Assembly (NCBI RefSeq): GCF_020382885.2 | Contig: NC_058506.1 | Coordinates: forward strand, 23,224,818-23,288,817 | From: Scatophagus argus | Lineage: Eukaryota; Chordata; Actinopteri; Scatophagidae | Direction: 5' to 3' | DNA: 64,000 bases | Shown here: one piece after another, positions 35,791 to 64,000 of the stretch | Layout of the letters: the number at the start of each line of letters is the position of its first letter | Numbering within the stretch: the stretch's first letter is position 1 | The notes under the pieces: generated by a model | What the model was told of the DNA's origin: nothing | The model's input: only the letters and a program-made list of their open reading frames with translations | Databases searched by the model: none | Program-made: the position numbers and the translations under genes

Positions 35791-35801
35791 ACAGATGTGA
35801 T

Positions 35802-40069: not shown

Positions 40070-40900
40070 ATGGAGAACCACAATTTAAGTACAGATATTC
40101 TGCTCCTGGAGGGGTTAAAGGTCAACCCCCAGTCCTCCATTCTCACCTTCATCCTCCTGCTCCTCATCTACATCTTCATCATGGTGTCCAACATCAGCCT
40201 TGTAGTCCTGATCACCAGGGAGAGGAGTCTCCACCAGCCTATGTATCTGCTCTTCTGCAACATGAGTATTAATGATGTTTTTGGGGCCACAGCCATCATT
40301 CCTCGGTTGCTGAGTGACATTTTTATTCCCAGCAGTGAGCGGTACATCCACTACATAGATTGTGTTATTCAGGCTTGTTGTGCTCACCTTCATGCAAGTG
40401 CCTCTCACACTGTGCTTATGATCATGGCCTTTGACCACCACGTGGCCATCTGCAACCCCCTGCATTATGCCACCATCATGACCAACCAGATGGTAGTAAA
40501 GCGTCTGCCTGGATGGTCTCCTTGGTGATGGTGCTGATCCTCGTGGGGCTCAGCATCCGCTTGTCACGCTGCAGGTGGATTATATTCAACCCATTCTGTG
40601 ACAACGCCTCCTTGTTCAAGCTGTCCTGTGAAAGTGTCCTCATTAATAACATCTATGGCCTCGGCTACAGGGTGGTCCTGCTGGGTTCCTCCATTGGTAG
40701 CATTATTCTTACCTACCTGAAAATTGCTGCTGTGTGTGTGCTCAGCAAGAACAAGGTGGTGAACAGCCGGGCGCTACAGACCTGCACCACCCATCTGGCC
40801 GTGTACATCATCCTGGTTGTGTCAGGATCCATCATTGTCATCCTCCATCGCTTCCCTCACTTATCAGATCACAGGAAGTTGGCATCCATCTTGTTGTATG
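40070..40900 (+). pseudogene. odorant receptor pseudogene, truncated at the array edge
   Basis: It opens MENHNLSTDILLLEGLKVN after the acceptor 'ctctatctcag' (ending 40047) and is clearly related to the receptor at 35802. Three lesions are visible. The DRY motif is DHH (FDHHVAICNPLHY). A 7-bp deletion near 40503, compared with the 35802 gene, shifts the frame between VVK and SAWM in TM4. From 40898 the sequence abruptly becomes array-unit DNA, removing TM7 and the C-tail. The second frame from 40513 keeps FNPFCDNASLFKLSCE, SKNKVVNSRALQTC and LHRFPHLSDHRKLASILL, which shows how recent the decay is. Confidence 0.92.
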
Positions 40901-41039
40901 ATTTCAGATACCCGGTTGCATTTTTGCAATGTCAGAATTCAAATTCAACCGACTGCACTTGATTCAGAACCTCACTATGATCGCCTGGTGCAATTTTGGT
41001 ATCGAAATTCAGCCTGAAATCAAAATTGGGGCCTTAAGT

Positions 41040-41400
41040 GGTTGCAAAAGAACAAAAGGTGAATAGTTCATCAGTTAATCATTCGTTTGGGGCTGATCGG
41101 ACAAACTTAAATTTTTGTGTCTCTGGCTGAAAAGAGCTCAGGAGGGCACATAGGCAGAAAGGGCAGAATGGGCTGACAGGGTCTCTGAAGCCCCCTGAAC
41201 CTGTATGGGGACGATGTCTTGAAATCAAGCCCTCATCGGGTAGAGGCGCCCTATCTGGCGAAGCAGACCTGATGGGGTCCCCAAGCTGTCTGGAGCACAA
41301 GGGGGTCACCGGGGCAATTTCGGGGGCGTGCCCTTTGATTTTAGGGCTTCGGGAACCATGCTCTTGTGTTCAGGGCAAAAAAGTTTTGGGTGTGTCCAGT
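41040..41400. other. GC-rich block of unknown nature, unit A
   Basis: Sharply GC-richer than its surroundings ('gaagccccctgaacctgta', 'ggggtcaccggggcaatttc', 'gggggcgtgccctttgatt'). Frames on both strands are open for 60-90 codons but show no motif I recognise. It is repeated at 46927-47315, 52842-53230 and 58757-59145. It could be an unclassified transposon fragment or a regulatory or CpG-rich element. Confidence 0.4.
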
Positions 41401-41840
41401 GGATAAAAAGAAATGTAAATATATTCTCTAAATATCATGTGTCCAACAAGTACAAAGAGATGCAAAAGTCAATTTTATAGAGCCCCAGATCACAATTTGA
41501 AAGAAGGCTTTCCAAAGTGCACAAAAGATTTGGGAAGGCATCTGCCAGTTATTTTATTTTTGCGCTCCGGATCAATGTTTGTAATCACAAGAGCAAGAGA
41601 ACTTCTTCAAGAAGTTTTATTTATTTATTTATTTTAAACTTGGCTGATATTTGAACTCTTAAAAATGACATCATCTTTACCAAATACTCATTTCAACTTA
41701 GTATTCATCCTTCATACTTACTTTATGTTCCATGTTAACATCAAATCTGAAATATGATAAAATCTAAGATAATTATGACGGTGGACATAGGCTGAGGGAA
41801 GTTTTGTGAAGTGAAAACATCAAGTTAATTCGACATACAG

Positions 41841-41963
41841 CAATTAAGGCCCCCAGGGATGTGAGATGGCCTTGACCGGAGAACTAAGGGCCTTTCAGAA
41901 GCTTATAAAATATGTCTGCCAGTCAACCTCTGATCTTGTCAGAGAAGGTTCATGTCAACAGAG
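41841..41963 (+). promoter_or_regulatory. receptor promoter and leader exon, unit A
   Basis: In order: a homeodomain-type site CAATTA (41841-41846), an adjacent EBF/Olf-1-like core CCCCAGGGA (41851-41859), a TATA box TATAAAA (41904-41910), then a short leader exon ending TGTCAACAGAG|GTAAAC (donor after 41963). The receptor ATG follows a strong acceptor 'ctctccctgcag' ending at 43217, so the leader intron is about 1.25 kb. Homeodomain plus EBF sites are the known hallmark of olfactory receptor promoters; their use here is inferred. Confidence 0.65.
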
Positions 41964-43218
41964 GTAAACCTGCTTCACATACTCATACGGTTCAGCATTG
42001 TTGATTTCCACTGTTCAGTGTGTCCATCTGATATGTGTCGTTGTGAAAGAAAAGTCAGCAGTGAAATGTGACTCTTGTTGAAAACTGAAAACTCCTCAAA
42101 ATCAAACCATCTCAAGCAGGAAGATGACCTGTCAAAGGTTTTAAAGCAACAACTGATATGATAAAGAACCGCTTTCAAAATTTGAGATGCTTTATATAAA
42201 AGATTGACATTTTGTTCTTTAAATGTTAACATTTAAACAGTAACAAATGAACGCAAAGAAACTAAAGTGAAAATAAATCTATTAAGTGTATCACTGCAGA
42301 AACAAATTTTGAATGTTTGATTTAGATAAAGTTTTTGTCTACATTAAAAAAAACTGCATTGTAGAATTCCTTTTCCAACAGAATGTAAGACTGGTTTAGC
42401 ATTTATTGAAAAGAGGTTGTTCAGTTTTGTCAGTGATACTGTACATGTTTCCAAGCTGTTTAGGAAATCAGTGAAACCCTCAAACTGTACATTGAGGTGA
42501 CACTGGAGCTGCAGTGTGTTTCAAGGATTTTACATTAACTTCCATTGCAATATGACCAAAGGTATTTTTAATTACATTTGTAAAGGCTCATGTGCAGTGA
42601 AGTTGTGCTCTGCGATCATAATGCTGAAGACAATACTCATGACTCCGGTTTCAGACTTAAAGCTTTCATTCAACAGTGCTGACAAAAGAGCTAGTGTTCA
42701 TTCTTTGAAAATTTGAAGACAGTTTGTTTTATGTGTTTTCTCAGCAGCACGTAGGCTACATTCAGCAAGTGGTAAGTGTCTAAAACAATGTAAAGTGATA
42801 CTGTGAGGACAGAGGTTGCTTTCCTAGCTAGGAGTAAGAGTCATGGTTTTTCATCAGGTTTTTTTTTTTTCATTGATGGCAGCAAATCATGAGAACATGA
42901 ACACAAATATCAGTTCAGATTAAAAGACTGACGATGTGGAAAAAAACAGATGTATATTAAACTCTTAAATCCCTACTTTGAAAGGAAAAACCTCAAATTA
43001 TCTTCAAGACATTGGTTAGAGTTCAGTGTAAATGGGTTTTTGTCATTTCGAGAAACTTTCGCACAAAAGAAAATTTTTCAAATTTGCTGCTTTCCATTTC
43101 AGAGCTGCACTCATTTACCAGCTCAGAAATTACTGACATTTTGATTAGCAGCATGACTAGATGAGGTTTTGATTTCAGTGTTGACTGAATTCTCCATCCA
43201 TGATCCTCTCCCTGCAGA

Positions 43219-44142
43219 ATGGAGAACCAAACGATCGATATGGACGTTCTACAGCTGGAGGGATTAAAGCTTGGCCCAAGGTTCACCATTCCAGCATTTT
43301 TCCTCCTTTTCATCATCTACATCTTCATTTTGGTGTCCAACATTGGCCTGGTGGTTTTGATTTTCACAAAGAGGAGCCTCCATGAGCCCATGTATCTGCT
43401 CTTATGCAACATGAGTATTAATGATGTTTTCGGGTCTACGTCCATTATTCCTCGCATGCTGGGTGACATTTTAATTCCAAGCAATGACCGGTACATTCAT
43501 TACAATGACTGTGTAGTTCAGGCCTTCTGTGCTCACGCTCACGGAGGCACTTCACACACTGTACTCGTAGTCATGGCCTTTGATCGATACGTGGCCATCT
43601 GCAACCCTCTCCGATACACCACCATCATGACCAACAGGATGGTGGTGAAGCTCTCAGTGGGCGCCTGGGGGGTAGCTTTCCTTATGGTTGGTATCCTTTT
43701 GAGACTCAGCACCCGCCTGTCGCGCTGCAGAAGGGTTGTACTCAACCCGTACTGTGACAATCCCTCCTTGTTCAAGCTATCTTGTGAAAATGTTGTTATC
43801 AACCACATTTACGGCCTCATCATCGCCATGGGCACAATGGCCGTGTCCCTGTGCAGCGTGATTCTCACCTACATGAGGATCGCCATGGTGTGTCTGACAA
43901 CAAGAGCTATGAGTAACAAAGCTTTTCAGACCTGTGCCACACACCTGGCTGTGTACATCATCCTGCTCTTGTCAGGTGGCATCATCATCCTCCTCCATCG
44001 TTTCCCTGGCTTATCAGATCACAGGAAGATTGGATCCATCTTGTTCCATATTGTTCCTCCTTCCATGAACGCTGTTATCTACGGACTGCAAATCAAAGCA
44101 GTCAGAGAAAAAATTTTGAATGTATTCAGCAAAAAAAAATAA
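43219..44142 (+). CDS. odorant receptor, array copy A
   Basis: A 307-residue seven-helix receptor. The ATG is one base after the acceptor 'tctccctgcag', which fixes the start; Asn3 is a glycosylation site (MENQT). Approximate markers: TM1 24-49 with SNIG, LHEPMYLLLCNMSINDVFGS at 54-73, FDRYVAICNPLRY at 121-133 (DRY intact), loop-2 cysteines at 170, 179 and 189, KAFQTCATHLAVY at 234-246, and TM7 MNAVIYGLQIK at 283-293 with Ala for the Pro of NPxxY. In intracellular loop 3 it reads CLTTRAMSNKAF, two residues shorter than copy D and the 35802 gene. The protein is identical to copies B and C. Confidence 0.95.
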   Translation: MENQTIDMDVLQLEGLKLGPRFTIPAFFLLFIIYIFILVSNIGLVVLIFTKRSLHEPMYLLLCNMSINDVFGSTSIIPRMLGDILIPSNDRYIHYNDCVVQAFCAHAHGGTSHTVLVVMAFDRYVAICNPLRYTTIMTNRMVVKLSVGAWGVAFLMVGILLRLSTRLSRCRRVVLNPYCDNPSLFKLSCENVVINHIYGLIIAMGTMAVSLCSVILTYMRIAMVCLTTRAMSNKAFQTCATHLAVYIILLLSGGIIILLHRFPGLSDHRKIGSILFHIVPPSMNAVIYGLQIKAVREKILNVFSKKK

Positions 44143-44930
44143 CATGTCACAAGTGAAGTGATGGCATTAAATCGAATGTAAAGTCATGTTAAAACTTGGC
44201 AAACCTAAAGTGAAGAATTTAATGTCCTTATTGTGATAGTGAGTAGCACATACCCAACTGCCTTGGTCTTATATCTTATAAAATCTGATACTTAAAGAAA
44301 GCTCACACAAAACAGCATGTAGGTGGGGTTCATAGAATTTGCTTGTAGGTCAATAAGCAAAGAGATTTGCAAGCATCGTGGTGGCCTCTGCACAAAGAAG
44401 TGCTTGTTGGGCTCAGCTCATTCTTCCAGTTATGTGAGACTGATGGCTATGCCAATATGTTGTCTGTGTTCAAGTTTGACAAACTAGGTGATCTGTATCC
44501 CTTAATGTTTTGCTGTTAACTGCTAATAGGTCATAGTTGTCTCAAGTATAATTACACGACACCATGCCATAAGTATTACATATTGTATGGATGTGTTTTC
44601 ATTTTGATGCATTTTCCTTTGCACATTATCCAAAGAGTATGTTTAACTGTTTTTGTCCTTAATGCTCCAAGCTTGCTGTAAAAGAATATTTCTTAGTGAA
44701 TTAAACCTCATGTCTAAAATTAGGATGTGACACAGTACACAATAAGAAAATAATAAGAATCATTAAATTGCAGAAACATTTCAATGGGACGCTTACAGCA
44801 AAGAAGTTTTTCCAGTGTCTTCTGAGATCAGAGGCACTGAGCATGAAAAGCAAACATATCGTACCAATGTCTGGAAGCAAGGGAAATAATACACACTAAA
44901 TGTGCCTGGTATATGTGAAACACTAATGAA
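44143..44930. other. 3' flank of receptor A, no second gene
   Basis: AT-rich and repeated in units B-D. Candidate polyadenylation signals (aataaa-like) are scattered. No gene is seen. The corresponding stretch in D (61894-62620) has lost a 60-70 bp piece. Confidence 0.4.
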
Positions 44931-44939
44931 TGTATTTTT

Positions 44940-45575
44940 CATATCGCCAGCAGGAAGAAAATGTAAGGTGAATAGTACTGGTCAGAGCACAGAACCTTGG
45001 GGAACTCTGTGACAAATCTTTGCGTACAAGGATGATTCATCATTAACATGAACGAACTGAGTTCAATCTGATAAATATGAATGAGACCAGCTTAATGCAG
45101 CTCCTTTAATGCCAATTGAGTGTTCACGTCTGTGGAATGAAATGTGGTGGTTAATGGTGTCAAATGGAGCACTGAGGTCTAACAATACGAGTACAGAGAC
45201 AAGATCCTCTTCTGATGCAAGCACAAGATTATTTGTGACTTTGACCAGCGTCATCTCTGTGCTGTGATGAGCTCTAAAACCAGACTGGGAATCCTTAAGT
45301 AGACTTTTACTATGTAGAAAGTCTCATAGCTGATTGGCCACTGCTTTCATGAGGATCTTAGAGAGAAAGGAAAGGTTAGATATCGGTATATAGTTGCCCA
45401 AAACCTCTGGATCAAGAGTAGGTTTTTTAAGGAGAGTTTTGATTCCAGCTACTTTAGAGGACTGTGATACATAGCCTGTTATTAGAGACGGACTGATCGT
45501 ATCTAGAAGGGAAGTGTTAAGTGGGGGTACAACTTCTTTGAGCAGCTTAGTTGGCATGGGGTCTAACAGGCATAT
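44940..45575 (-). mobile_element. L2-type LINE reverse transcriptase fragment, unit A
   Basis: The minus frame begins MPTKLLKEVVPPLNTSLLD and continues GIKTLLKKPTLDPEVLGNY, IPISNLSFLSKILMKAVANQ, then after one stop TLVKVTNNLVLASEEDLVSV, LVLLDLSAPFDTINHHIS (the first catalytic Asp region of reverse transcriptase) and further CHRVPQGSVL. It lacks endonuclease and the rest of the polymerase. The in-frame TGA after NQL is shared by units A-C but absent in D. Confidence 0.88.
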
Positions 45576-46129
45576 TGTTGGTTTGAAGAGATCAATTAGT
45601 TTAGTTTATTTTTAATAGTAACTGTTTTCATTGTTAATATCTCTTCTAAACGATTCAAGAATCAGTTGACATGAAATACGTGCATGCACTAGTTTTTATC
45701 CTCCACATCACAGCCAGATGGTGCTGCATTGTGTCTTGTGAATCCCTTATGACTTTCTTAAATTTGAAAAGAAAAAAAAAAAAGAATCACAATTGGGAAA
45801 AGTGACTCTCTCAGTAACAAAGAAAACTGCTATAGAAGCATTTATGAAATGTACCAAAAATAAATCCGATGTTCCTTCAACCTGGCCATGATTTAACTCC
45901 TGCCCTTACAAAGTAAGATCCAGTGCTAATATTTTAAAAGTTATTTTTCCAACTTGGAATCATATCCAGAATACAGCTGCCTGACAAATAAATAAATAAA
46001 AACAGATGAAAGCAAAAGCACAGTGAGTTGACACAAATAGTGGCAACCTGCATGGTCATTTTGATATCAAGTATACAGCAGCAGTTGCCTAGTGGCTGTT
46101 CAGCAATACAACAAAGTTTGGAGTACCAG

Positions 46130-46203
46130 GGGCCCCTGAGTCAGCTTGTGAAAATGTGTCAGTCCACATCCAGTCTGGCTGGAGGAGGTTCACATCAACA
46201 GAG
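46130..46203 (+). promoter_or_regulatory. decayed second leader module, unit A
   Basis: 'ggggcccctgagtcagcttg' then 'gaaaatgtgtc' and 'ggttcacatcaacagag|gtaatc' align with the active module at 41841-41963 ('gggcctttcagaagcttat', 'aaaatatgtctg', 'ggttcatgtcaacagag|gtaaac'). The TATA box has become TGTGAAAA. The donor is intact (after 46203). It looks like the leader of a receptor that has since been lost. Repeated in units B and C. Confidence 0.5.
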
Positions 46204-46926
46204 GTAATCCTTGAATGTCAAACTGCTTCCATCCCCAGTAAATAATGAACTGGGGGAAAACATGATGGGCTATAAAAGCAAATGTACCTCCACAAAGTTA
46301 AAACTTTTTCTTGGCACATGAAAATTTGATACTTTAGACTCACAGTTTGGATAAAGAATCCCAATCTTTAGTCATTCTGACCGTGACTTCATTAGATGTA
46401 ACGCTGAGGTTTTCATTTTGACTTTGACTTAAATATTTGTATAATTTGAATGTGTTTTATTTCTAATGTAATGTCTAAAGAGTGAAAATGAAGGCAGTTT
46501 TTATTTGTTTCTTGACTTACTTTTACATACAAATTTTGTGAGCTAATGTGACTCTTTTCTATAGCATGTTAATACAGCTATAGAGGTTCGATACAATGTG
46601 TGACAGTGGTGAACCTATGGTACATCCAAGCTTTCATCCGCAGAACCTTTTTTGTGAAAGTATATGCAACGTACAGCCTCATATTTCAACCAAAATAGGT
46701 TCAATTGATCTCAAAGTTGTACAAGCATCCAACATCCACCCAAAGAATCTGAATCCTGCATATCAGGTTGCCACCTCCTCTCCAATGATTTCAGATACCC
46801 GGTTGCATTTTTGCAATGTCAGAATTCAAATTCAACCGACTGCACTTGATTCAGAACCTCACTATGATCGCCTGGTGCAATTTTGGTATCGAAATTCAGC
46901 CTGAAATCAAAATTGGGGCCTTAAGT

Positions 46927-47315
46927 GGTTGCAAAAGAACAAAAGGTGAATAGTTCATCAGTTAATCATTCGTTTGGGGCTGATCGGACAAACTTAAATT
47001 TTTGTGTCTCTGGCTGAAAAGAGCTCAGGAGGGCACATAGGCAGAAAGGGCAGAATGGGCTGACAGGGTCTCTGAAGCCCCCTGAACCTGTATGGGGACG
47101 ATGTCTTGAAATCAAGCCCTCATCGGGTAGAGGCGCCCTCTGTCCGATATGCTGAACGGTGGCCCGATCTGGCGAAGCAGACCTGATGGGGTCCCCAAGC
47201 TGTCTGGAGCACAAGGGGGTCACCGGGGCAATTTCGGGGGCGTGCCCTTTGATTTTAGGGCTTCGGGAACCATGCTCGTGTGTTCAGGGCAAAAAAAGTT
47301 TTGGGTGTGTCCAGT
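46927..47315. other. GC-rich block, unit B
   Basis: Same block as in unit A, with the extra 27 bp 'ctgtccgatatgctgaac'-type segment at about 47140-47166 that unit A lacks. Confidence 0.4.
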
Positions 47316-47755
47316 GGATAAACAGAAATGTAAATATATTCTCTAAATATCATGTGTCCAACAAGTACAAAGAGATGCAAAAGTCAATTTTATAGAGCCC
47401 CAGATCACAATTTGAAAGAAGGCTTTCCAAAGTGCACAAAAGATTTGGGAAGGCATCTGCCAGTTATTTTATTTTTGCGCTCCGGATCAATGTTTGTAAT
47501 CACAAGAGCAAGAGAACTTCTTCAAGAAGTTTTATTTATTTATTTATTTTAAACTTGGCTGATATTTGAACTCTTAAAAATGACATCATCTTTACCAAAT
47601 ACTCATTTCAACTTAGTATTCATCCTTCATACTTACTTTATGTTCCATGTTAACATCAAATCTGAAATATGATAAAATCTAAGATAATTATGACGGTGGA
47701 CATAGGCTGAGGGAAGTTTTGTGAAGTGAAAACATCAAGTTAATTCGACATACAG

Positions 47756-47878
47756 CAATTAAGGCCCCCAGGGATGTGAGATGGCCTTGACCGGAGAACT
47801 AAGGGCCTTTCAGAAGCTTATAAAATATGTCTGCCAGTCAACCTCTGATCTTGTCAGAGAAGGTTCATGTCAACAGAG
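47756..47878 (+). promoter_or_regulatory. receptor promoter and leader exon, unit B
   Basis: The CAATTA, CCCCAGGGA, TATAAAA and CAACAGAG|GT elements are all preserved at the unit A positions plus 5915. Confidence 0.65.
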
Positions 47879-49133
47879 GTAAACCTGCTTCACATACTCA
47901 TACGGTTCAGCATTGTTGATTTCCACTGTTCAGTGTGTCCATCTGATATGTGTCGTTGTGAAAGAAAAGTCAGCAGTGAAATGTGACTCTTGTTGAAAAC
48001 TGAAAACTCCTCAAAATCAAACCATCTCAAGCAGGAAGATGACCTGTCAAAGGTTTTAAAGCAACAACTGATATGATAAAGAACCGCTTTCAAAATTTGA
48101 GATGCTTTATATAAAAGATTGACATTTTGTTCTTTAAATGTTAACATTTAAACAGTAACAAATGAACGCAAAGAAACTAAAGTGAAAATAAATCTATTAA
48201 GTGTATCACTGCAGAAACAAATTTTGAATGTTTGATTTAGATAAAGTTTTTGTCTACATTAAAAAAAACTGCATTGTAGAATTCCTTTTCCAACAGAATG
48301 TAAGACTGGTTTAGCATTTATTGAAAAGAGGTTGTTCAGTTTTGTCAGTGATACTGTACATGTTTCCAAGCTGTTTAGGAAATCAGTGAAACCCTCAAAC
48401 TGTACATTGAGGTGACACTGGAGCTGCAGTGTGTTTCAAGGATTTTACATTAACTTCCATTGCAATATGACCAAAGGTATTTTTAATTACATTTGTAAAG
48501 GCTCATGTGCAGTGAAGTTGTGCTCTGCGATCATAATGCTGAAGACAATACTCATGACTCCGGTTTCAGACTTAAAGCTTTCATGCAACAGTGCTGACAA
48601 AAGAGCTAGTGTTCATTCTTTGAAAATTTGAAGACAGTTTGTTTTATGTGTTTTCTCAGCAGCACGTAGGCTACATTCAGCAAGTGGTAAGTGTCTAAAA
48701 CAATGTAAAGTGATACTGTGAGGACAGAGGTTGCTTTCCTAGCTAGGAGTAAGAGTCATGGTTTTTCATCAGGTTTTTTTTTTTTCATTGATGGCAGCAA
48801 ATCATGAGAACATGAACACAAATATCAGTTCAGATTAAAAGACTGACGATGTGGAAAAAAACAGATGTATATTAAACTCTTAAATCCCTACTTTGAAAGG
48901 AAAAACCTCAAATTATCTTCAAGACATTGGTTAGAGTTCAGTGTAAATGGGTTTTTGTCATTTCGAGAAACTTTCGCACAAAAGAAAATTTTTCAAATTT
49001 GCTGCTTTCCATTTCAGAGCTGCACTCATTTACCAGCTCAGAAATTACTGACATTTTGATTAGCAGCATGACTAGATGAGGTTTTGATTTCAGTGTTGAC
49101 TGAATTCTCCATCCATGATCCTCTCCCTGCAGA

Positions 49134-50057
49134 ATGGAGAACCAAACGATCGATATGGACGTTCTACAGCTGGAGGGATTAAAGCTTGGCCCAAGGTTCA
49201 CCATTCCAGCATTTTTCCTCCTTTTCATCATCTACATCTTCATTTTGGTGTCCAACATTGGCCTGGTGGTTTTGATTTTCACAAAGAGGAGCCTCCATGA
49301 GCCCATGTATCTGCTCTTATGCAACATGAGTATTAATGATGTTTTCGGGTCTACGTCCATTATTCCTCGCATGCTGGGTGACATTTTAATTCCAAGCAAT
49401 GACCGGTACATTCATTACAATGACTGTGTAGTTCAGGCCTTCTGTGCTCACGCTCACGGAGGCACTTCACACACTGTACTCGTAGTCATGGCCTTTGATC
49501 GATACGTGGCCATCTGCAACCCTCTCCGATACACCACCATCATGACCAACAGGATGGTGGTGAAGCTCTCAGTGGGCGCCTGGGGGGTAGCTTTCCTTAT
49601 GGTTGGTATCCTTTTGAGACTCAGCACCCGCCTGTCGCGCTGCAGAAGGGTTGTACTCAACCCGTACTGTGACAATCCCTCCTTGTTCAAGCTATCTTGT
49701 GAAAATGTTGTTATCAACCACATTTACGGCCTCATCATCGCCATGGGCACAATGGCCGTGTCCCTGTGCAGCGTGATTCTCACCTACATGAGGATCGCCA
49801 TGGTGTGTCTGACAACAAGAGCTATGAGTAACAAAGCTTTTCAGACCTGTGCCACACACCTGGCTGTGTACATCATCCTGCTCTTGTCAGGTGGCATCAT
49901 CATCCTCCTCCATCGTTTCCCTGGCTTATCAGATCACAGGAAGATTGGATCCATCTTGTTCCATATTGTTCCTCCTTCCATGAACGCTGTTATCTACGGA
50001 CTGCAAATCAAAGCAGTCAGAGAAAAAATTTTGAATGTATTCAGCAAAAAAAAATAA
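49134..50057 (+). CDS. odorant receptor, array copy B
   Basis: A 307-residue protein identical to copies A and C, with the same acceptor one base before the ATG and the same leader module 1.2 kb upstream. The first base difference from A and C that I see lies just after the stop ('gtgaaatg' against 'gtgaagtg'). Expected to be functional. Confidence 0.95.
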   Translation: MENQTIDMDVLQLEGLKLGPRFTIPAFFLLFIIYIFILVSNIGLVVLIFTKRSLHEPMYLLLCNMSINDVFGSTSIIPRMLGDILIPSNDRYIHYNDCVVQAFCAHAHGGTSHTVLVVMAFDRYVAICNPLRYTTIMTNRMVVKLSVGAWGVAFLMVGILLRLSTRLSRCRRVVLNPYCDNPSLFKLSCENVVINHIYGLIIAMGTMAVSLCSVILTYMRIAMVCLTTRAMSNKAFQTCATHLAVYIILLLSGGIIILLHRFPGLSDHRKIGSILFHIVPPSMNAVIYGLQIKAVREKILNVFSKKK

Positions 50058-50854
50058 CATGTCACAAGTGAAATGATGGCATTAAATCGAATGTAAAGTC
50101 ATGTTAAAACTTGGCAAACCTAAAGTGAAGAATTTAATGTCCTTATTGTGATAGTGAGTAGCACATACCCAACTGCCTTGGTCTTATATCTTATAAAATC
50201 TGATACTTAAAGAAAGCTCACACAAAACAGCATGTAGGTGGGGTTCATAGAATTTGCTTGTAGGTCAATAAGCAAAGAGATTTGCAAGCATCGTGGTGGC
50301 CTCTGCACAAAGAAGTGCTTGATGGGCTCAGCTCATTCTTCCAGTTATGTGAGACTGATGGCTATGCCAATATGTTGTCTGTGTTCAAGTTTGACAAACT
50401 AGGTGATCTGTATCCCTTAATGTTTTGCTGTTAACTGCTAATAGGTCATAGTTGTCTCAAGTATAATTACACGACACCATGCCATAAGTATTACATATTG
50501 TATGGATGTGTTTTCATTTTGATGCATTTTCCTTTGCACATTATCCAAAGAGTATGTTTAACTGTTTTTGTCCTTAATGCTCCAAGCTTGCTGTAAAAGA
50601 ATATTTCTTAGTGAATTAAACCTCATGTCTAAAATTAGGATGTGACACAGTACACAATAAGAAAATAATAAGAATCATTAAATTGCAGAAACATTTCAAT
50701 GGGACGCTTACAGCAAAGAAGTTTTTCCAGTGTCTTCTGAGATCAGAGGCACTGAGCATGAAAAGCAAACATATCGTACCAATGTCTGGAAGCAAGGGAA
50801 ATAATACACACTAAATGTGCCTGGTATATGTGAAACACTAATGAATGTATTTTT

Positions 50855-51490
50855 CATATCGCCAGCAGGAAGAAAATGTAAGGTGAATAGTACTGGTCAG
50901 AGCACAGAACCTTGGGGAACTCTGTGACAAATCTTTGCGTACAAGGATGATTCATCATTAACATGAACGAACTGAGTTCAATCTGATAAATATGAATGAG
51001 ACCAGCTTAATGCAGCTCCTTTAATGCCAATTGAGTGTTCACGTCTGTGGAATGAAATGTGGTGGTTAATGGTGTCAAATGGAGCACTGAGGTCTAACAA
51101 TACGAGTACAGAGACAAGATCCTCTTCTGATGCAAGCACAAGATTATTTGTGACTTTGACCAGCGTCATCTCTGTGCTGTGATGAGCTCTAAAACCAGAC
51201 TGGGAATCCTTAAGTAGACTTTTACTATGTAGAAAGTCTCATAGCTGATTGGCCACTGCTTTCATGAGGATCTTAGAGAGAAAGGAAAGGTTAGATATCG
51301 GTATATAGTTGCCCAAAACCTCTGGATCAAGAGTAGGTTTTTTAAGGAGAGTTTTGATTCCAGCTACTTTAGAGGACTGTGATACATAGCCTGTTATTAG
51401 AGACGGACTGATCGTATCTAGAAGGGAAGTGTTAAGTGGGGGTACAACTTCTTTGAGCAGCTTAGTTGGCATGGGGTCTAACAGGCATAT
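50855..51490 (-). mobile_element. L2-type LINE fragment, unit B
   Basis: Same fragment as in unit A including the TGA after NQL (plus strand 'gaaagtctcatagctg'). Confidence 0.88.
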
Positions 51491-52841: not shown

Positions 52842-53230
52842 GGTTGCAAAAGAACAAAAGGTGAATAGTTCATCAGTTAATCATTCGTTTGGGGCTGATC
52901 GGACAAACTTAAATTTTTGTGTCTCTGGCTGAAAAGAGCTCAGGAGGGCACATAGGCAGAAAGGGCAGAATGGGCTGACAGGGTCTCTGAAGCCCCCTGA
53001 ACCTGTATGGGGACGATGTCTTGAAATCAAGCCCTCATCGGGTAGAGGCGCCCTCTGTCCGATATGCTGAACGGTGGCCCGATCTGGCGAAGCAGACCTG
53101 ATGGGGTCCCCAAGCTGTCTGGAGCACAAGGGGGTCACCGGGGCAATTTCGGGGGCGTGCCCTTTGATTTTAGGGCTTCGGGAACCATGCTCGTGTGTTC
53201 AGGGCAAAAAAAGTTTTGGGTGTGTCCAGT
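52842..53230. other. GC-rich block, unit C
   Basis: Same as the unit B block; no difference noticed. Confidence 0.4.
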
Positions 53231-53670
53231 GGATAAACAGAAATGTAAATATATTCTCTAAATATCATGTGTCCAACAAGTACAAAGAGATGCAAAAGTC
53301 AATTTTATAGAGCCCCAGATCACAATTTGAAAGAAGGCTTTCCAAAGTGCACAAAAGATTTGGGAAGGCATCTGCCAGTTATTTTATTTTTGCGCTCCGG
53401 ATCAATGTTTGTAATCACAAGAGCAAGAGAACTTCTTCAAGAAGTTTTATTTATTTATTTATTTTAAACTTGGCTGATATTTGAACTCTTAAAAATGACA
53501 TCATCTTTACCAAATACTCATTTCAACTTAGTATTCATCCTTCATACTTACTTTATGTTCCATGTTAACATCAAATCTGAAATATGATAAAATCTAAGAT
53601 AATTATGACGGTGGACATAGGCTGAGGGAAGTTTTGTGAAGTGAAAACATCAAGTTAATTCGACATACAG

Positions 53671-53793
53671 CAATTAAGGCCCCCAGGGATGTGAGATGGC
53701 CTTGACCGGAGAACTAAGGGCCTTTCAGAAGCTTATAAAATATGTCTGCCAGTCAACCTCTGATCTTGTCAGAGAAGGTTCATGTCAACAGAG
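53671..53793 (+). promoter_or_regulatory. receptor promoter and leader exon, unit C
   Basis: The same four elements as in units A and B, unchanged by eye. Confidence 0.65.
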
Positions 53794-55048
53794 GTAAACC
53801 TGCTTCACATACTCATACGGTTCAGCATTGTTGATTTCCACTGTTCAGTGTGTCCATCTGATATGTGTCGTTGTGAAAGAAAAGTCAGCAGTGAAATGTG
53901 ACTCTTGTTGAAAACTGAAAACTCCTCAAAATCAAACCATCTCAAGCAGGAAGATGACCTGTCAAAGGTTTTAAAGCAACAACTGATATGATAAAGAACC
54001 GCTTTCAAAATTTGAGATGCTTTATATAAAAGATTGACATTTTGTTCTTTAAATGTTAACATTTAAACAGTAACAAATGAACGCAAAGAAACTAAAGTGA
54101 AAATAAATCTATTAAGTGTATCACTGCAGAAACAAATTTTGAATGTTTGATTTAGATAAAGTTTTTGTCTACATTAAAAAAAACTGCATTGTAGAATTCC
54201 TTTTCCAACAGAATGTAAGACTGGTTTAGCATTTATTGAAAAGAGGTTGTTCAGTTTTGTCAGTGATACTGTACATGTTTCCAAGCTGTTTAGGAAATCA
54301 GTGAAACCCTCAAACTGTACATTGAGGTGACACTGGAGCTGCAGTGTGTTTCAAGGATTTTACATTAACTTCCATTGCAATATGACCAAAGGTATTTTTA
54401 ATTACATTTGTAAAGGCTCATGTGCAGTGAAGTTGTGCTCTGCGATCATAATGCTGAAGACAATACTCATGACTCCGGTTTCAGACTTAAAGCTTTCATG
54501 CAACAGTGCTGACAAAAGAGCTAGTGTTCATTCTTTGAAAATTTGAAGACAGTTTGTTTTATGTGTTTTCTCAGCAGCACGTAGGCTACATTCAGCAAGT
54601 GGTAAGTGTCTAAAACAATGTAAAGTGATACTGTGAGGACAGAGGTTGCTTTCCTAGCTAGGAGTAAGAGTCATGGTTTTTCATCAGGTTTTTTTTTTTT
54701 CATTGATGGCAGCAAATCATGAGAACATGAACACAAATATCAGTTCAGATTAAAAGACTGACGATGTGGAAAAAAACAGATGTATATTAAACTCTTAAAT
54801 CCCTACTTTGAAAGGAAAAACCTCAAATTATCTTCAAGACATTGGTTAGAGTTCAGTGTAAATGGGTTTTTGTCATTTCGAGAAACTTTCGCACAAAAGA
54901 AAATTTTTCAAATTTGCTGCTTTCCATTTCAGAGCTGCACTCATTTACCAGCTCAGAAATTACTGACATTTTGATTAGCAGCATGACTAGATGAGGTTTT
55001 GATTTCAGTGTTGACTGAATTCTCCATCCATGATCCTCTCCCTGCAGA

Positions 55049-55972
55049 ATGGAGAACCAAACGATCGATATGGACGTTCTACAGCTGGAGGGATTAAAGC
55101 TTGGCCCAAGGTTCACCATTCCAGCATTTTTCCTCCTTTTCATCATCTACATCTTCATTTTGGTGTCCAACATTGGCCTGGTGGTTTTGATTTTCACAAA
55201 GAGGAGCCTCCATGAGCCCATGTATCTGCTCTTATGCAACATGAGTATTAATGATGTTTTCGGGTCTACGTCCATTATTCCTCGCATGCTGGGTGACATT
55301 TTAATTCCAAGCAATGACCGGTACATTCATTACAATGACTGTGTAGTTCAGGCCTTCTGTGCTCACGCTCACGGAGGCACTTCACACACTGTACTCGTAG
55401 TCATGGCCTTTGATCGATACGTGGCCATCTGCAACCCTCTCCGATACACCACCATCATGACCAACAGGATGGTGGTGAAGCTCTCAGTGGGCGCCTGGGG
55501 GGTAGCTTTCCTTATGGTTGGTATCCTTTTGAGACTCAGCACCCGCCTGTCGCGCTGCAGAAGGGTTGTACTCAACCCGTACTGTGACAATCCCTCCTTG
55601 TTCAAGCTATCTTGTGAAAATGTTGTTATCAACCACATTTACGGCCTCATCATCGCCATGGGCACAATGGCCGTGTCCCTGTGCAGCGTGATTCTCACCT
55701 ACATGAGGATCGCCATGGTGTGTCTGACAACAAGAGCTATGAGTAACAAAGCTTTTCAGACCTGTGCCACACACCTGGCTGTGTACATCATCCTGCTCTT
55801 GTCAGGTGGCATCATCATCCTCCTCCATCGTTTCCCTGGCTTATCAGATCACAGGAAGATTGGATCCATCTTGTTCCATATTGTTCCTCCTTCCATGAAC
55901 GCTGTTATCTACGGACTGCAAATCAAAGCAGTCAGAGAAAAAATTTTGAATGTATTCAGCAAAAAAAAATAA
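55049..55972 (+). CDS. odorant receptor, array copy C
   Basis: Identical in protein to copies A and B. Its 3' flank agrees with unit A ('gtgaagtg', 'gcttgttggg') rather than with its neighbour B. Confidence 0.95.
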   Translation: MENQTIDMDVLQLEGLKLGPRFTIPAFFLLFIIYIFILVSNIGLVVLIFTKRSLHEPMYLLLCNMSINDVFGSTSIIPRMLGDILIPSNDRYIHYNDCVVQAFCAHAHGGTSHTVLVVMAFDRYVAICNPLRYTTIMTNRMVVKLSVGAWGVAFLMVGILLRLSTRLSRCRRVVLNPYCDNPSLFKLSCENVVINHIYGLIIAMGTMAVSLCSVILTYMRIAMVCLTTRAMSNKAFQTCATHLAVYIILLLSGGIIILLHRFPGLSDHRKIGSILFHIVPPSMNAVIYGLQIKAVREKILNVFSKKK

Positions 55973-56769
55973 CATGTCACAAGTGAAGTGATGGCATTAA
56001 ATCGAATGTAAAGTCATGTTAAAACTTGGCAAACCTAAAGTGAAGAATTTAATGTCCTTATTGTGATAGTGAGTAGCACATACCCAACTGCCTTGGTCTT
56101 ATATCTTATAAAATCTGATACTTAAAGAAAGCTCACACAAAACAGCATGTAGGTGGGGTTCATAGAATTTGCTTGTAGGTCAATAAGCAAAGAGATTTGC
56201 AAGCATCGTGGTGGCCTCTGCACAAAGAAGTGCTTGTTGGGCTCAGCTCATTCTTCCAGTTATGTGAGACTGATGGCTATGCCAATATGTTGTCTGTGTT
56301 CAAGTTTGACAAACTAGGTGATCTGTATCCCTTAATGTTTTGCTGTTAACTGCTAATAGGTCATAGTTGTCTCAAGTATAATTACACGACACCATGCCAT
56401 AAGTATTACATATTGTATGGATGTGTTTTCATTTTGATGCATTTTCCTTTGCACATTATCCAAAGAGTATGTTTAACTGTTTTTGTCCTTAATGCTCCAA
56501 GCTTGCTGTAAAAGAATATTTCTTAGTGAATTAAACCTCATGTCTAAAATTAGGATGTGACACAGTACACAATAAGAAAATAATAAGAATCATTAAATTG
56601 CAGAAACATTTCAATGGGACGCTTACAGCAAAGAAGTTTTTCCAGTGTCTTCTGAGATCAGAGGCACTGAGCATGAAAAGCAAACATATCGTACCAATGT
56701 CTGGAAGCAAGGGAAATAATACACACTAAATGTGCCTGGTATATGTGAAACACTAATGAATGTATTTTT

Positions 56770-57405
56770 CATATCGCCAGCAGGAAGAAAATGTAAGGTG
56801 AATAGTACTGGTCAGAGCACAGAACCTTGGGGAACTCTGTGACAAATCTTTGCGTACAAGGATGATTCATCATTAACATGAACGAACTGAGTTCAATCTG
56901 ATAAATATGAATGAGACCAGCTTAATGCAGCTCCTTTAATGCCAATTGAGTGTTCACGTCTGTGGAATGAAATGTGGTGGTTAATGGTGTCAAATGGAGC
57001 ACTGAGGTCTAACAATACGAGTACAGAGACAAGATCCTCTTCTGATGCAAGCACAAGATTATTTGTGACTTTGACCAGCGTCATCTCTGTGCTGTGATGA
57101 GCTCTAAAACCAGACTGGGAATCCTTAAGTAGACTTTTACTATGTAGAAAGTCTCATAGCTGATTGGCCACTGCTTTCATGAGGATCTTAGAGAGAAAGG
57201 AAAGGTTAGATATCGGTATATAGTTGCCCAAAACCTCTGGATCAAGAGTAGGTTTTTTAAGGAGAGTTTTGATTCCAGCTACTTTAGAGGACTGTGATAC
57301 ATAGCCTGTTATTAGAGACGGACTGATCGTATCTAGAAGGGAAGTGTTAAGTGGGGGTACAACTTCTTTGAGCAGCTTAGTTGGCATGGGGTCTAACAGG
57401 CATAT
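56770..57405 (-). mobile_element. L2-type LINE fragment, unit C
   Basis: Same fragment and same TGA as in units A and B. Confidence 0.88.
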
Positions 57406-57959
57406 TGTTGGTTTGAAGAGATCAATTAGTTTAGTTTATTTTTAATAGTAACTGTTTTCATTGTTAATATCTCTTCTAAACGATTCAAGAATCAGTTGAC
57501 ATGAAATACGTGCATGCACTAGTTTTTATCCTCCACATCACAGCCAGATGGTGCTGCATTGTGTCTTGTGAATCCCTTATGACTTTCTTAAATTTGAAAA
57601 GAAAAAAAAAAAAGAATCACAATTGGGAAAAGTGACTCTCTCAGTAACAAAGAAAACTGCTATAGAAGCATTTATGAAATGTACCAAAAATAAATCCGAT
57701 GTTCCTTCAACCTGGCCATGATTTAACTCCTGCCCTTACAAAGTAAGATCCAGTGCTAATATTTTAAAAGTTATTTTTCCAACTTGGAATCATATCCAGA
57801 ATACAGCTGCCTGACAAATAAATAAATAAAAACAGATGAAAGCAAAAGCACAGTGAGTTGACACAAATAGTGGCAACCTGCATGGTCATTTTGATATCAA
57901 GTATACAGCAGCAGTTGCCTAGTGGCTGTTCAGCAATACAACAAAGTTTGGAGTACCAG

Positions 57960-58033
57960 GGGCCCCTGAGTCAGCTTGTGAAAATGTGTCAGTCCACATC
58001 CAGTCTGGCTGGAGGAGGTTCACATCAACAGAG
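57960..58033 (+). promoter_or_regulatory. decayed second leader module, unit C
   Basis: Same sequence as in units A and B. The unit D equivalent would lie beyond the right edge of the window. Confidence 0.5.
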
Positions 58034-58756
58034 GTAATCCTTGAATGTCAAACTGCTTCCATCCCCAGTAAATAATGAACTGGGGGAAAACATGATGGGC
58101 TATAAAAGCAAATGTACCTCCACAAAGTTAAAACTTTTTCTTGGCACATGAAAATTTGATACTTTAGACTCACAGTTTGGATAAAGAATCCCAATCTTTA
58201 GTCATTCTGACCGTGACTTCATTAGATGTAACGCTGAGGTTTTCATTTTGACTTTGACTTAAATATTTGTATAATTTGAATGTGTTTTATTTCTAATGTA
58301 ATGTCTAAAGAGTGAAAATGAAGGCAGTTTTTATTTGTTTCTTGACTTACTTTTACATACAAATTTTGTAAGCTAATGTGACTCTTTTCTATAGCATGTT
58401 AATACAGCTATAGAGGTTCGATACAATGTGTGACAGTGGTGAACCTATGGTACATCCAAGCTTTCATCCGCAGAACCTTTTTTGTGAAAGTATATGCAAC
58501 GTACAGCCTCATATTTCAACCAAAATAGGTTCAATTGATCTCAAAGTTGTACAAGCATCCAACATCCACCCAAAGAATCTGAATCCTGCATATCAGGTTG
58601 CCACCTCCTCTCCAATGATTTCAGATACCCGGTTGCATTTTTGCAATGTCAGAATTCAAATTCAACCGACTGCACTTGATTCAGAACCTCACTATGATCG
58701 CCTGGTGCAATTTTGGTATCGAAATTCAGCCTGAAATCAAAATTGGGGCCTTAAGT

Positions 58757-59145
58757 GGTTGCAAAAGAACAAAAGGTGAATAGTTCATCAGTTAATCATT
58801 CGTTTGGGGCTGATCGGACAAACTTAAATTTTTGTGTCTCTGGCTGAAAAGAGCTCAGGAGGGCACATAGGCAGAAAGGGCAGAATGGGCTGACAGGGTC
58901 TCTGAAGCCCCCTGAACCTGTATGGGGACGATGTCTTGAAATCAAGCCCTCATCGGGTAGAGGCGCCCTCTGTCCGATATGCTGAACGGTGGCCCGATCT
59001 GGCGAAGCAGACCTGATGGGGTCCCCAAGCTGTCTGGAGCACAAGGGGGTCACCGGGGCAATTTCGGGGGCGTGCCCTTTGATTTTAGGGCTTCGGGAAC
59101 CATGCTCGTGTGTTCAGGGCAAAAAAAGTTTTGGGTGTGTCCAGT
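58757..59145. other. GC-rich block, unit D
   Basis: Same as the unit B block; no difference noticed, in contrast to the diverged 3' half of unit D. Confidence 0.4.
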
Positions 59146-59585
59146 GGATAAACAGAAATGTAAATATATTCTCTAAATATCATGTGTCCAACAAGTACAA
59201 AGAGATGCAAAAGTCAATTTTATAGAGCCCCAGATCACAATTTGAAAGAAGGCTTTCCAAAGTGCACAAAAGATTTGGGAAGGCATCTGCCAGTTATTTT
59301 ATTTTTGCGCTCCGGATCAATGTTTGTAATCACAAGAGCAAGAGAACTTCTTCAAGAAGTTTTATTTATTTATTTATTTTAAACTTGGCTGATATTTGAA
59401 CTCTTAAAAATGACATCATCTTTACCAAATACTCATTTCAACTTAGTATTCATCCTTCATACTTACTTTATGTTCCATGTTAACATCAAATCTGAAATAT
59501 GATAAAATCTAAGATAATTATGACGGTGGACATAGGCTGAGGGAAGTTTTGTGAAGTGAAAACATCAAGTTAATTCGACATACAG

Positions 59586-59708
59586 CAATTAAGGCCCCCA
59601 GGGATGTGAGATGGCCTTGACCGGAGAACTAAGGGCCTTTCAGAAGCTTATAAAATATGTCTGCCAGTCAACCTCTGATCTTGTCAGAGAAGGTTCATGT
59701 CAACAGAG
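59586..59708 (+). promoter_or_regulatory. receptor promoter and leader exon, unit D
   Basis: Same four elements, unchanged, ahead of the diverged receptor at 60964. It lies in the part of unit D that matches unit C. Confidence 0.65.
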
Positions 59709-60963
59709 GTAAACCTGCTTCACATACTCATACGGTTCAGCATTGTTGATTTCCACTGTTCAGTGTGTCCATCTGATATGTGTCGTTGTGAAAGAAAAGT
59801 CAGCAGTGAAATGTGACTCTTGTTGAAAACTGAAAACTCCTCAAAATCAAACCATCTCAAGCAGGAAGATGACCTGTCAAAGGTTTTAAAGCAACAACTG
59901 ATATGATAAAGAACCGCTTTCAAAATTTGAGATGCTTTATATAAAAGATTGACATTTTGTTCTTTAAATGTTAACATTTAAACAGTAACAAATGAACGCA
60001 AAGAAACTAAAGTGAAAATAAATCTATTAAGTGTATCACTGCAGAAACAAATTTTGAATGTTTGATTTAGATAAAGTTTTTGTCTACATTAAAAAAAACT
60101 GCATTGTAGAATTCCTTTTCCAACAGAATGTAAGACTGGTTTAGCATTTATTGAAAAGAGGTTGTTCAGTTTTGTCAGTGATACTGTACATGTTTCCAAG
60201 CTGTTTAGGAAATCAGTGAAACCCTCAAACTGTACATTGAGGTGACACTGGAGCTGCAGTGTGTTTCAAGGATTTTACATTAACTTCCATTGCAATATGA
60301 CCAAAGGTATTTTTAATTACATTTGTAAAGGCTCATGTGCAGTGAAGTTGTGCTCTGCGATCATAATGCTGAAGACAATACTCATGACTCCGGTTTCAGA
60401 CTTAAAGCTTTCATGCAACAGTGCTGACAAAAGAGCTAGTGTTCATTCTTTGAAAATTTGAAGACAGTTTGTTTTATGTGTTTTCTCAGCAGCACGTAGG
60501 CTACATTCAGCAAGTGGTAAGTGTCTAAAACAATGTAAAGTGATACTGTGAGGACAGAGGTTGCTTTCCTAGCTAGGAGTAAGAGTCATGGTTTTTCATC
60601 AGGTTTTTTTTTTTTCATTGATGGCAGCAAATCATGAGAACATGAACACAAATATCAGTTCAGATTAAAAGACTGACGATGTGGAAAAAAACAGATGTAT
60701 ATTAAACTCTTAAATCCCTACTTTGAAAGGAAAAACCTCAAATTATCTTCAAGACATTGGTTAGAGTTCAGTGTAAATGGGTTTTTGTCATTTCGAGAAA
60801 CTTTCGCACAAAAGAAAATTTTTCAAATTTGCTGCTTTCCATTTCAGAGCTGCACTCATTTACCAGCTCAGAAATTACTGACATTTTGATTAGCAGCATG
60901 ACTAGATGAGGTTTTGATTTCAGTGTTGACTGAATTCTCCATCCATGATCCTCTCCCTGCAGA

Positions 60964-61893
60964 ATGGAGAACCAAACGATCGATATGGACGTTCTACAGC
61001 TGGAGGGATTAAAGCTTGGCCCAAGGTTCACCATTCCAGCATTTTTCCTCCTTTTCATCATCTACATCTTCATTGTGGTGTCCAACATTGGCCTGGTGGT
61101 TTTGATTTTCACAAAGAGGAGCCTCCATGAGCCCATGTATCTGCTCTTCTGCAACATGAGTATTAATGATGTTTTCGGGGCTACGACCATTATTCCTCGC
61201 GTGCTGAGTGACATTTTAATTCCAAGCAATGACCGGTACATTCATTACAATGACTGTGTAGTTCAGGCCTTCTGTGCTCACGCTCACGGAGGCACTTCAC
61301 ACACTGTACTCGTAGTCATGGCCTTTGATCGATACGTGGCCATCTGCAACCCTCTGCGATACACCACCATCATGACCAACAGGATGGTGGTGAAGCTCTC
61401 AGTGGGCGCCTGGGGGGTAGCTTTCCTTATGGTTGGTATCCTTTTGAGACTCAGCACCCGCCTGTCGCGCTGCAGAAGGGTTGTACTCAACCCGTTCTGT
61501 GACAATCCCTCCTTGTTCAAGCTATCCTGTGAAAATGTTGTTATCAACCACATTTACGGCCTCATCATCGCCATGGGCACGATGGCCGTGTCCCTGTGCA
61601 GCGTGATGCTCACCTACATGAGGATCACCATGGTGTGTCTGACTAGCAAGAGCAAAGTTGTGAATAGCAAAGCTTTTCAGACCTGTGCCACGCACCTGGC
61701 TGTGTACATCATCCTGCTTTTGTCAGGTGGCATCATCATCCTCCTCCATCGTTTCCCTGACTTATCAGATCACAGGAAGATTGGATCCATCTTGTTCCAT
61801 ATTGTTCCTCCTTCCATGAACGCTGTTATCTACGGACTGCAAATCAAAGCTCTCAGAGAAAAAATTTTGAATGTATTCAGCAAAAACAACTAA
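60964..61893 (+). CDS. odorant receptor, array copy D (diverged)
   Basis: A 309-residue receptor. It differs from A-C at more than a dozen residues, all after about position 37: FIVVSNIG, LLFCNMS, GATTIIPRVLSD, NPFCDN, VMLTYMRITMV, FPDLSD, KALREK and the tail KNN. Loop 3 reads SKSKVVNSKAFQTC, the form shared with the 35802 gene, so copies A-C carry the derived two-residue deletion. TM7 is again NAVIY. It is intact and expected to be functional. Confidence 0.95.
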   Translation: MENQTIDMDVLQLEGLKLGPRFTIPAFFLLFIIYIFIVVSNIGLVVLIFTKRSLHEPMYLLFCNMSINDVFGATTIIPRVLSDILIPSNDRYIHYNDCVVQAFCAHAHGGTSHTVLVVMAFDRYVAICNPLRYTTIMTNRMVVKLSVGAWGVAFLMVGILLRLSTRLSRCRRVVLNPFCDNPSLFKLSCENVVINHIYGLIIAMGTMAVSLCSVMLTYMRITMVCLTSKSKVVNSKAFQTCATHLAVYIILLLSGGIIILLHRFPDLSDHRKIGSILFHIVPPSMNAVIYGLQIKALREKILNVFSKNN

Positions 61894-62629
61894 TATGTCA
61901 CAAGTGAAATGATGGCATTAAATCAAATGTAAAGTTATGTTATTTAAAAACTTGGCAAACCTAAAGTGAAGAATTTAATGTCCTTTTTGTGATAGTGAGT
62001 AGCACATACCCAACTGCCTTGGTCTTATATCTTATAAAATCTGATACTTAAAGAAAGCTCACACAAAACAGCATGTAGGTGGGGTTCATAGAATTTGATG
62101 GGCTCAGCTCATTCTTCCAGTTATGTGAGACTGATGGCTATGCCAATATGTTGTCTGTGTTTAAGTTTGACAAACAGAGTGTTCTGTATCCCTTAATGTT
62201 TTGCTGTTAACTACTAGTGGTCATAGTTGTCTCAAGTATAATTACACAACATCATGCCATAAGTATTACATATTGTATGGAGGTGTTTTGATTTTGATGC
62301 ATTTTCCTTTCGCACATTATCCAAAGAGTATGTTTAACTGTTTTTGTCCTTAATGCTCCAAGCTTGCTGTAAAAGAATATTTCTTAGTGAATTAAACCTC
62401 ATGTCTACAATTATGTGTGACAAAGTACACAAAAAGAAAATAATAAGAATCATTAAATTGCAGAATCATTTCAATGGGAAGCTTACAGCAAAGAAGTTTT
62501 TCCAGTGTCTTCTGAGATCAGAAGCACTGAGCATGAAAAGCAAAGATATCGTACCAATGTCTGGAAGCAAGGGAAATAATACACACTAACTGTGCCTGTT
62601 ATATGTGAAACACTAATGAATGTGTTTTT

Positions 62630-63265
62630 CATATCACCAGCAGGAAGAAAATGTAAGGTGAATAGTACTGGTCAGAGCACAGAACCTTGGGGAACTCTGT
62701 GACAAATCTTTGCGTACAAGGATGATTCATCATTAACATGAACGAACTGAGTTCAATCTGATAAATATGAATGAGACCAGCTTAATGCAGCTCCTTTAAT
62801 GCCAATTGAGTGTTCACGTCTGTGGAATGAAATGTGGTGGTTAATGGTGTCAAATGGAGCACTGAGGTCTAACAATACGAGTACAGAGACAAGATCCTCT
62901 TCTGATGCAAGCACAAGATTATTTGTGACTTTGACCAGCGTCATCTCTGTGCTGTGATGAGCTCTAAAACCAGACTGGGAATCCTTAAGTAGACTTTTAC
63001 TATGTAGAATGTCACATAGCTGATTGGCCACTGCTTTCATGAGGATCTTAGAGAGAAAGGAAAGGTTAGATATCGGTATATAGTTGCCCAAAACCTCTGG
63101 ATCAAGAGTAGGTTTTTTAAGGAGAGTTTTGATTCCAGCTACTTTAGAGGACTGTGATACATAGCCTGTTATTAGAGACGGACTGATCGTATCTAGAAGG
63201 GAAGTGTTAAGTGGGGGTACAACTTCTTTGAGCAGCTTAGTTGGCATGGGGTCTAACAGGCATAT
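62630..63265 (-). mobile_element. L2-type LINE fragment, unit D (stop absent)
   Basis: Here the plus strand reads 'gaatgtcacatagctg', so the minus frame runs on through NQLCDILHSKSLLKDSQSGF for 164 codons (63247-62753). This is the ancestral state; the stop in A-C arose after their common ancestor split from D. It is still only a fragment of reverse transcriptase. Confidence 0.88.
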
Positions 63266-63459
63266 TGTTGGTTTGAAGAGATCAATTAGTTTAGTTTATT
63301 TTTAATAGTAACTGTTTTCATTGTTAATATCTCTTCTAAACGATTCAAGAATCAGTTGACATGAAATACGTGCATGCACTAGTTTTTATCCTCCACATCA
63401 CAGCCAGATGGTGCTGCATTGTGTCTTGTGAATCCCTTATGACTTTCTTAAATTTGAAA

Positions 63460-63477
63460 AAAAAAAAAAAAAAAAAA
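63460..63477. repeat. A-run, expanded in unit D
   Basis: The A-run is about 20 bases here against about 12 in units A-C (for example 45770-45782). Such a tract is prone to sequencing and assembly error. Confidence 0.8.
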
Positions 63478-63637
63478 GAATCACAATTGGGAAAAGTGAC
63501 TCTCTCAGTAACAAAGAAAATTGCTATAGAAGCATTTATGAAATGTACTAAAAATATATCTGATGTTCCTTCAACCTGACCATGATTTAACTCATGCCCT
63601 TACAAAGTAAGATCCAGTGCTAATATTTTAAAAGTTA

Positions 63638-63907
63638 AGCCTGTGAATATTCTCATTCATCCAGGTCATGGTTATCTCAAGGAAATTCAATCGAATGCAA
63701 CTGGACTTAGTTATTTGTCTTTGAAGACGTTTCACCTCTCATCCAAGAGGCTTCATCAGTTCACGCTCGCTTGACTAGGCTGGGACTAGTCCAACTAGCT
63801 GGTTTGGAGACCCAGGTATTTAACCTCTGTGGAGGCATTCACATGGCCAGTGGTGTCATAGGCTCGTTTAGTGCTCCATTGTGCCAATTCGATTGAATTT
63901 CCTTCAG
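63638..63907 (-). mobile_element. 270-bp insertion unique to unit D, 15-bp target duplication
   Basis: The target 'atattttaaaagtta' is duplicated at 63623-63637 and 63908-63922, and units A-C have a single uninterrupted copy, so the boundaries are exact. The insert contains 'gaagacgtttcacctctcat' and 'ccaagaggcttcatcag', a motif I associate with a widespread teleost retroelement. It also carries an inverted pair 'aaggaaattcaatcgaat' / 'attcgattgaatttcctt' near its ends. The orientation is a guess and the family is unresolved. The long duplication fits target-primed insertion rather than cut-and-paste. Confidence 0.85.
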
Positions 63908-64000
63908 ATATTTTAAAAGTTATTTTTCCAACTTGGAATCATATCCAGAATACAACAGCCTGACAAATAAATAAATAAAAACAGATGAAAGCAAAAGCAC

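Follow-up and report, generated by a model that had tools for sequence, protein, structure and literature searches.

The window, by which we mean the whole stretch of DNA analysed, spans 64,000 bases with 0 N and carries a cluster of olfactory receptor genes in its right half. All six ORFs of at least 200 aa in the window are receptors, and every one lies on the + strand. Four of their proteins (A, D, OR2 and OR1) were scanned and all four gave a PF13853 (olfactory receptor) match above the cut-off in a single uninterrupted ORF, the proteins of B and C being identical to that of A. The features of the cluster are listed below.

32984–33964, + strand: OR1, receptor
35802 (ATG)–36752, + strand: OR2, receptor
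40070–40897, + strand: OR0, broken olfactory receptor, both ORF pieces matching PF13853
40898–46784, + strand: unit A, 5887 bp
42671–43329, + strand: 659-bp block in unit A, present in 4/4 units (further copies at 48586, 54501 and 60416), candidate crossover zone
43219–44142, + strand: receptor A, 307 aa
45066–45605, − strand: weak reverse-transcriptase-like fragment inside the unit (Pfam scan of two ORFs)
46785–52699, + strand: unit B, 5915 bp
49134–50057, + strand: receptor B, 307 aa, identical to A
52700–58614, + strand: unit C, 5915 bp
55049–55972, + strand: receptor C, 307 aa, identical to A
58615–64000, + strand: unit D, a mosaic, running past the window end (58615–61074 identical to B and C, about 2.6% different from 61075 on)
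60964–61893, + strand: receptor D, 309 aa, with codon 38 the first difference from A–C
63638–63907, unstranded: 270-bp insertion in D, with a 15-bp duplication on either side (63623–63637 and 63908–63922)

Left of the receptor cluster lie organic anion transporter exons (OATP/SLCO family) on the − strand (8655–21099), with PF03137 in five ORFs and Kazal domains in one (10168–10425). A LINE-type reverse-transcriptase ORF is found on the + strand at 27976–28608 (RVT_1, E = 2.4e-12). Two dispersed repeats (7322–7479 and 28739–28899) are 78% identical, and the second of them overlaps a LINE-like ORF region. About 250 bp at 19153–19400 match their own reverse complement at 75.6% and are possibly a small hairpin transposon. 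Among 16 non-receptor ORFs scanned with Pfam (14 elsewhere, two in unit A), the only matches were to OATP, Kazal and reverse-transcriptase domains, and tRNA and Rfam scans of the 64,000-base window gave 0 matches. The fragment inside the unit is faint, in that ORF 45066–45323 of unit A matched RVT_1 at E = 1.5e-05 and 25.3 bits, under the cut-off of 29.6, and ORF 45327–45605 of the same unit had no Pfam match.

Directly before the array, OR0 lacks 7 bp that OR2 has (near 40502), and its 3′ end is lost at about 40897, right where the array begins (40898). The coding sequences of OR2 (35801–36623) and OR0 (40069–40884) are 87% identical, and their flanks showed no similarity at E 1e-3 within the stretches compared, hence conversion between the two may have been confined to coding sequence.

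Near-identical units of the array

The ORF list places the four receptor starts (43219, 49134, 55049 and 60964) exactly 5915 bp apart, and both this spacing and the left edge at 40898, as given in a first-pass annotation of the same DNA, were borne out. The unit length of 5915 bp proposed there fits B and C; unit A is 5887 bp long because of indels close to its left end, and D has no end inside the window. Self-comparison at a lag of 5915 gave 99.6–100% identity per 500-bp bin in all bins from 41501 to 55000, and one exact run at this lag is 4837 bp long. The units are arranged head to tail, and B, C and D have the same left junction across the 51 bases compared. Taken with the 659-bp block that is free of mismatches in all four units, the 4837-bp exact run is a repeat far beyond chance.

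Pairwise alignment of A and B yielded six substitutions (41364, 41408, 42670, 44158, 44407 and 46540) and two indels (27 bp after 41252 and 1 bp at 41376), in keeping with the “fewer than ten” differences counted initially. B and C differ at two of 5915 bases (50073 and 50322), again the number reported before. Between A and C there are two differences in 5376 positions (41409 to 46784), plus 41364, 41408 and both indels. The proteins encoded by A, B and C agree at 307/307 residues, as the first-pass annotation had read them.

At the right-hand side, the 270-bp insertion in D contains an 18-bp inverted repeat. Past this insertion the unit homology picks up again for 93 bp at 97.8% identity, up to base 64000. 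A reading of D as the end of the array is therefore not supported; since homology resumes, the array may be longer than four units, with a right edge that would lie outside the window.

Mosaic structure of unit D

The fourth unit is not the equal of the other three. D shows 0 differences from B and 0 from C across a tract made up of the unit's initial 2460 bp, which ends at codon 37–38 of the receptor ORF. Beyond the switch, C and D differ by 65 substitutions in 2532 positions and by seven indels, counted up to the D insertion. The same break is seen against A (3/2432 upstream of the switch versus 65/2532 downstream), and under even placement a first half free of C–D differences has a log10 P of about −19. 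We therefore rejected D as a fourth equal unit, given the 65/2532 C–D differences after codon 37.

Eight of the 65 C–D substitutions fall in an intracellular-loop cluster. We considered a burst of eight substitutions with a 6-bp indel in this loop, the third intracellular one, and set it aside, as two indels (1 and 5 bp) with four substitutions fit better; the true C–D count is therefore slightly below 65, which leaves the mosaic conclusion unaffected. A 63-bp deletion is also present in D, with an edge a few bases from the equivalent of 44407.

The 659-bp block consists of the 548 bp before the ORF and the first 111 bp of the ORF, and it ends at the C–D switch. Judged from these alignments, D is a mosaic whose 3′ part is older, its hybrid switch lying inside the receptor ORF and adjoining the shared homology. 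Gene conversion could also have made the upstream tract. The earlier description of the locus as an array of one unit is incomplete, given this older 3′ part of D and the fact that A, B and C did not arise as plain serial copies of each other (see below).

Ages were estimated assuming a star-shaped history and a mutation rate between 2e-9 and 1e-8 per site and generation. For the tract shared by B, C and D (0 changes in 2460 bp), the 95% upper bound is about 41,000 to 203,000 generations, and the C–D split downstream of the switch dates, with the same rates, to about 1.1 to 5.5 million generations. The first-pass view of a very young expansion is supported for A, B, C and the upstream part of D, whereas the downstream part of D is older.

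Order of descent, conversion and assembly

Up to the D insertion, 68 gap-free columns vary among the four units: three separate A from B, C and D, 63 separate A, B and C from D, and two join A with C against B with D. The three A-specific columns are all upstream of the switch, and the 63 D-specific columns are all downstream. Only the remaining two, at 44158 and 44407, are informative for unit order, the latter lying close to the edge of the 63-bp deletion in D, and at both B carries the allele of D and C the allele of A. Had B mutated independently at both sites, a chance match to D would have P of about 7e-5. We rejected serial copying from A to B to C on the basis of these two sites, at which B has the D allele while A and C agree; the downstream part of C is also nearer to that of A than to that of its neighbour B. 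Between the equivalents of 44158 and 44407, the other differences that mark D are absent from B, hence a D-to-B conversion tract does not explain the two sites.

The same two sites bear on whether the array could instead be old and stable, gene conversion having lately homogenised it by writing one sequence over A–C and the upstream part of D. Such a history would account for the identity of D with B and C upstream alongside a 2.6% difference downstream, and gene conversion in olfactory receptor clusters is reported in PMC1995454. However, conversion would have had to overwrite 5.9-kb units almost completely, together with their intergenic DNA, to leave 2/5915 differences, and D, whose intervening differences B lacks, cannot have been the donor of the two D-like alleles in B. 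We regard homogenisation as very unlikely.

Upstream of the switch, five events are private to A (three substitutions and two indels), all of them located to the left of the 659-bp block. Were such events placed evenly, this arrangement would have a probability of about 0.005 (0.04 if the substitutions are taken by themselves); position 46540, which separates A from B and C and is not comparable in D, was left out of this calculation. These upstream differences of A could be later private mutations.

Whether the copies are real can be judged from the alleles at 44158, 44407, 46540 and their equivalents, which read G,T,G in A, A,A,A in B and G,T,A in C. Three downstream combinations are more than two alleles of one diploid copy supply. 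The first-pass annotation took the few real differences to speak against a pure assembly echo; the three combinations argue more strongly for the same view, although they fall short of proof, as misplacement together with a phase switch or base error could imitate them. In an artefact of this type there would be fewer true units (e.g. A–D or A–C–D), with a loop through the 659-bp block repeated or the B allele laid in tandem. A loop of the common block, a downstream part and the D-type upstream part would make B and C look like the products of unequal exchange, the B–C difference of 2/5915 is of an allele-like amount, and the alternation G,T / A,A / G,T is as expected from a haplotype switch. 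In the older assemblies that PMC9516828 looked at, 4–16% of the sequence was falsely duplicated, and the vertebrate cases described there resemble our units in being near-identical adjacent copies with allele-like differences. Our units differ from them in having three, not two, downstream versions and no gap between copies, a mark of false duplication named in that source and absent here (0 N in 64,000 bases). Since a single diploid copy could appear in three versions only through a further phase switch or base error, we consider an assembly artefact unlikely.

Recent unequal crossing-over fits best among the explanations considered. We think it likely that this olfactory receptor array, in a genome that the character of its receptors and repeats suggests to be a fish's, is real and young, and that its head-to-tail units multiplied through successive unequal homologous exchanges between neighbours. 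The array would have begun as an ancestral pair, an A-like unit (U1) followed by D (U2), which recombined at least twice with their 5′ ends misaligned. Every exchange would have joined the upstream part of U2 to the downstream part of U1, placing one new hybrid unit directly left of D. With two haplotypes of U1 (A,A and G,T), two exchanges would lead to the succession of units seen, with G,T in A, A,A in B and G,T in C, followed by D. An exchange before these probably gave D its own upstream part, taken from the same family, as A and D are separated by 3/2432 differences upstream and by 65/2532 downstream. This two-exchange history is the simplest we found, as inferred from the pattern of alleles, and one of several that fit.

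A further step would be to see the locus as an active exchange site, at which a zone of about 659 bp (the DNA before the gene and 37 codons) is reused, so that one common control region and N-terminus would be joined again and again to a changing receptor body, and individuals of the species would differ both in that body and in copy number. We consider this unlikely.

Receptor proteins and biological meaning

As marks of olfactory receptors, PMC1325023 gives an N-terminal N-glycosylation site and the motif MA[FY][DE]RYVAIC, and both were found in the predicted proteins. The glycosylation site is NQT at residue 3 in A, D and OR2 and NYT in OR1, and MAFDRYVAIC is found at residue 119 in A, D and OR2, with the variant MAFDRFMAIC in OR1. 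For the IC3 motif KAFSTCXSH, A and D read KAFQTCATH, two positions off the strict motif. Candidates for the three conserved cysteines of the second extracellular loop are C170, C179 and C189, present in A and D. By sequence, the closest solved structures to A are consensus olfactory receptors (9wpm, 8hti and others).

Receptor D agrees with A at 288/307 aligned positions, with 19 differing and two extra residues in D. At the differing sites OR2 matches D over most of the loop and also at residues 62, 73, 178 and 306, and it matches A at residues 215, 222, 295 and 307, hence changes have occurred on both sides. In the third intracellular loop (about 43898–43916 in A, and equivalents in B and C), A–C differ from D by the two indels (1 and 5 bp), which in combination preserve the frame. 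As the longer form is common to D, OR2 and OR1, the shorter loop is derived in A–C. Excluding the codons before 38 and the loop, C and D are separated by 6.0 changes at 178.7 synonymous sites and 12.0 at 586.3 nonsynonymous sites (dS 0.034, dN 0.021); from these small counts, constraint on the receptor between C and D appears weak at most.

Each unit would supply about 2.3 kb of upstream DNA along with an identical receptor. The 659-bp block may be called a promoter by position only. Its 548 bp before the ORF, searched with O/E-type and homeodomain-type patterns, contained 0 O/E-type sites and one homeodomain-like site.

Olfactory neurons as a rule express about one receptor allele each, with mutually exclusive expression even between identical transgene copies (PMC1995454). 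If so here, A–C would give one receptor additional chances of being picked when a neuron settles on its single receptor, and would take a larger share of expressing neurons, and D would contribute a close receptor variant. With one allele per neuron, more copies would mean more neurons choosing the receptor, not more receptor per neuron; we infer that A–C would raise the number of neurons and not the amount in each. The first-pass annotation saw dosage of one receptor rather than new specificity, which agrees with the protein identity of A–C and omits D, with its 19 differing positions and two extra residues.

Our array is in line with the teleost olfactory receptor clusters described in PMC1325023, which likewise hold single-ORF 7tm_4 receptors in the same orientation with close paralogues adjacent, and for which tandem duplication has been suggested as the cause of contiguous same-orientation subfamilies. 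It differs in having three identical proteins and a recombination switch that can be located beside the 659-bp block. In humans, the olfactory receptor loci that vary in copy number are reported to be young ones with high-identity paralogues (PMC2978733), and the multi-allelic loci among them resemble ours in both respects; population variation was measured there, whereas here one assembled sequence is at hand. Tandem duplication of olfactory receptors via unequal crossover and mosaic receptors via recombination have been described (PMC1995454), and tandem duplication, mosaics and copy-number variation are established for this family in the sources consulted (PMC1995454, PMC2978733, PMC1325023, PMC3464592). 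A literature search found this array named in no title among the matches listed. We see it as a textbook case of birth-and-death evolution among olfactory receptors, of an ordinary kind and with breakpoints that are unusually easy to read, and a clear new instance of a known process.

If the copy number is real, the locus is a clean snapshot of olfactory receptor birth, in which identical genes with near-identical upstream DNA stand beside a mosaic neighbour. It would then show how exchange within a receptor ORF joins one control region to a different receptor body, and would offer a direct way to ask whether identical extra copies raise the number of neurons choosing a receptor.
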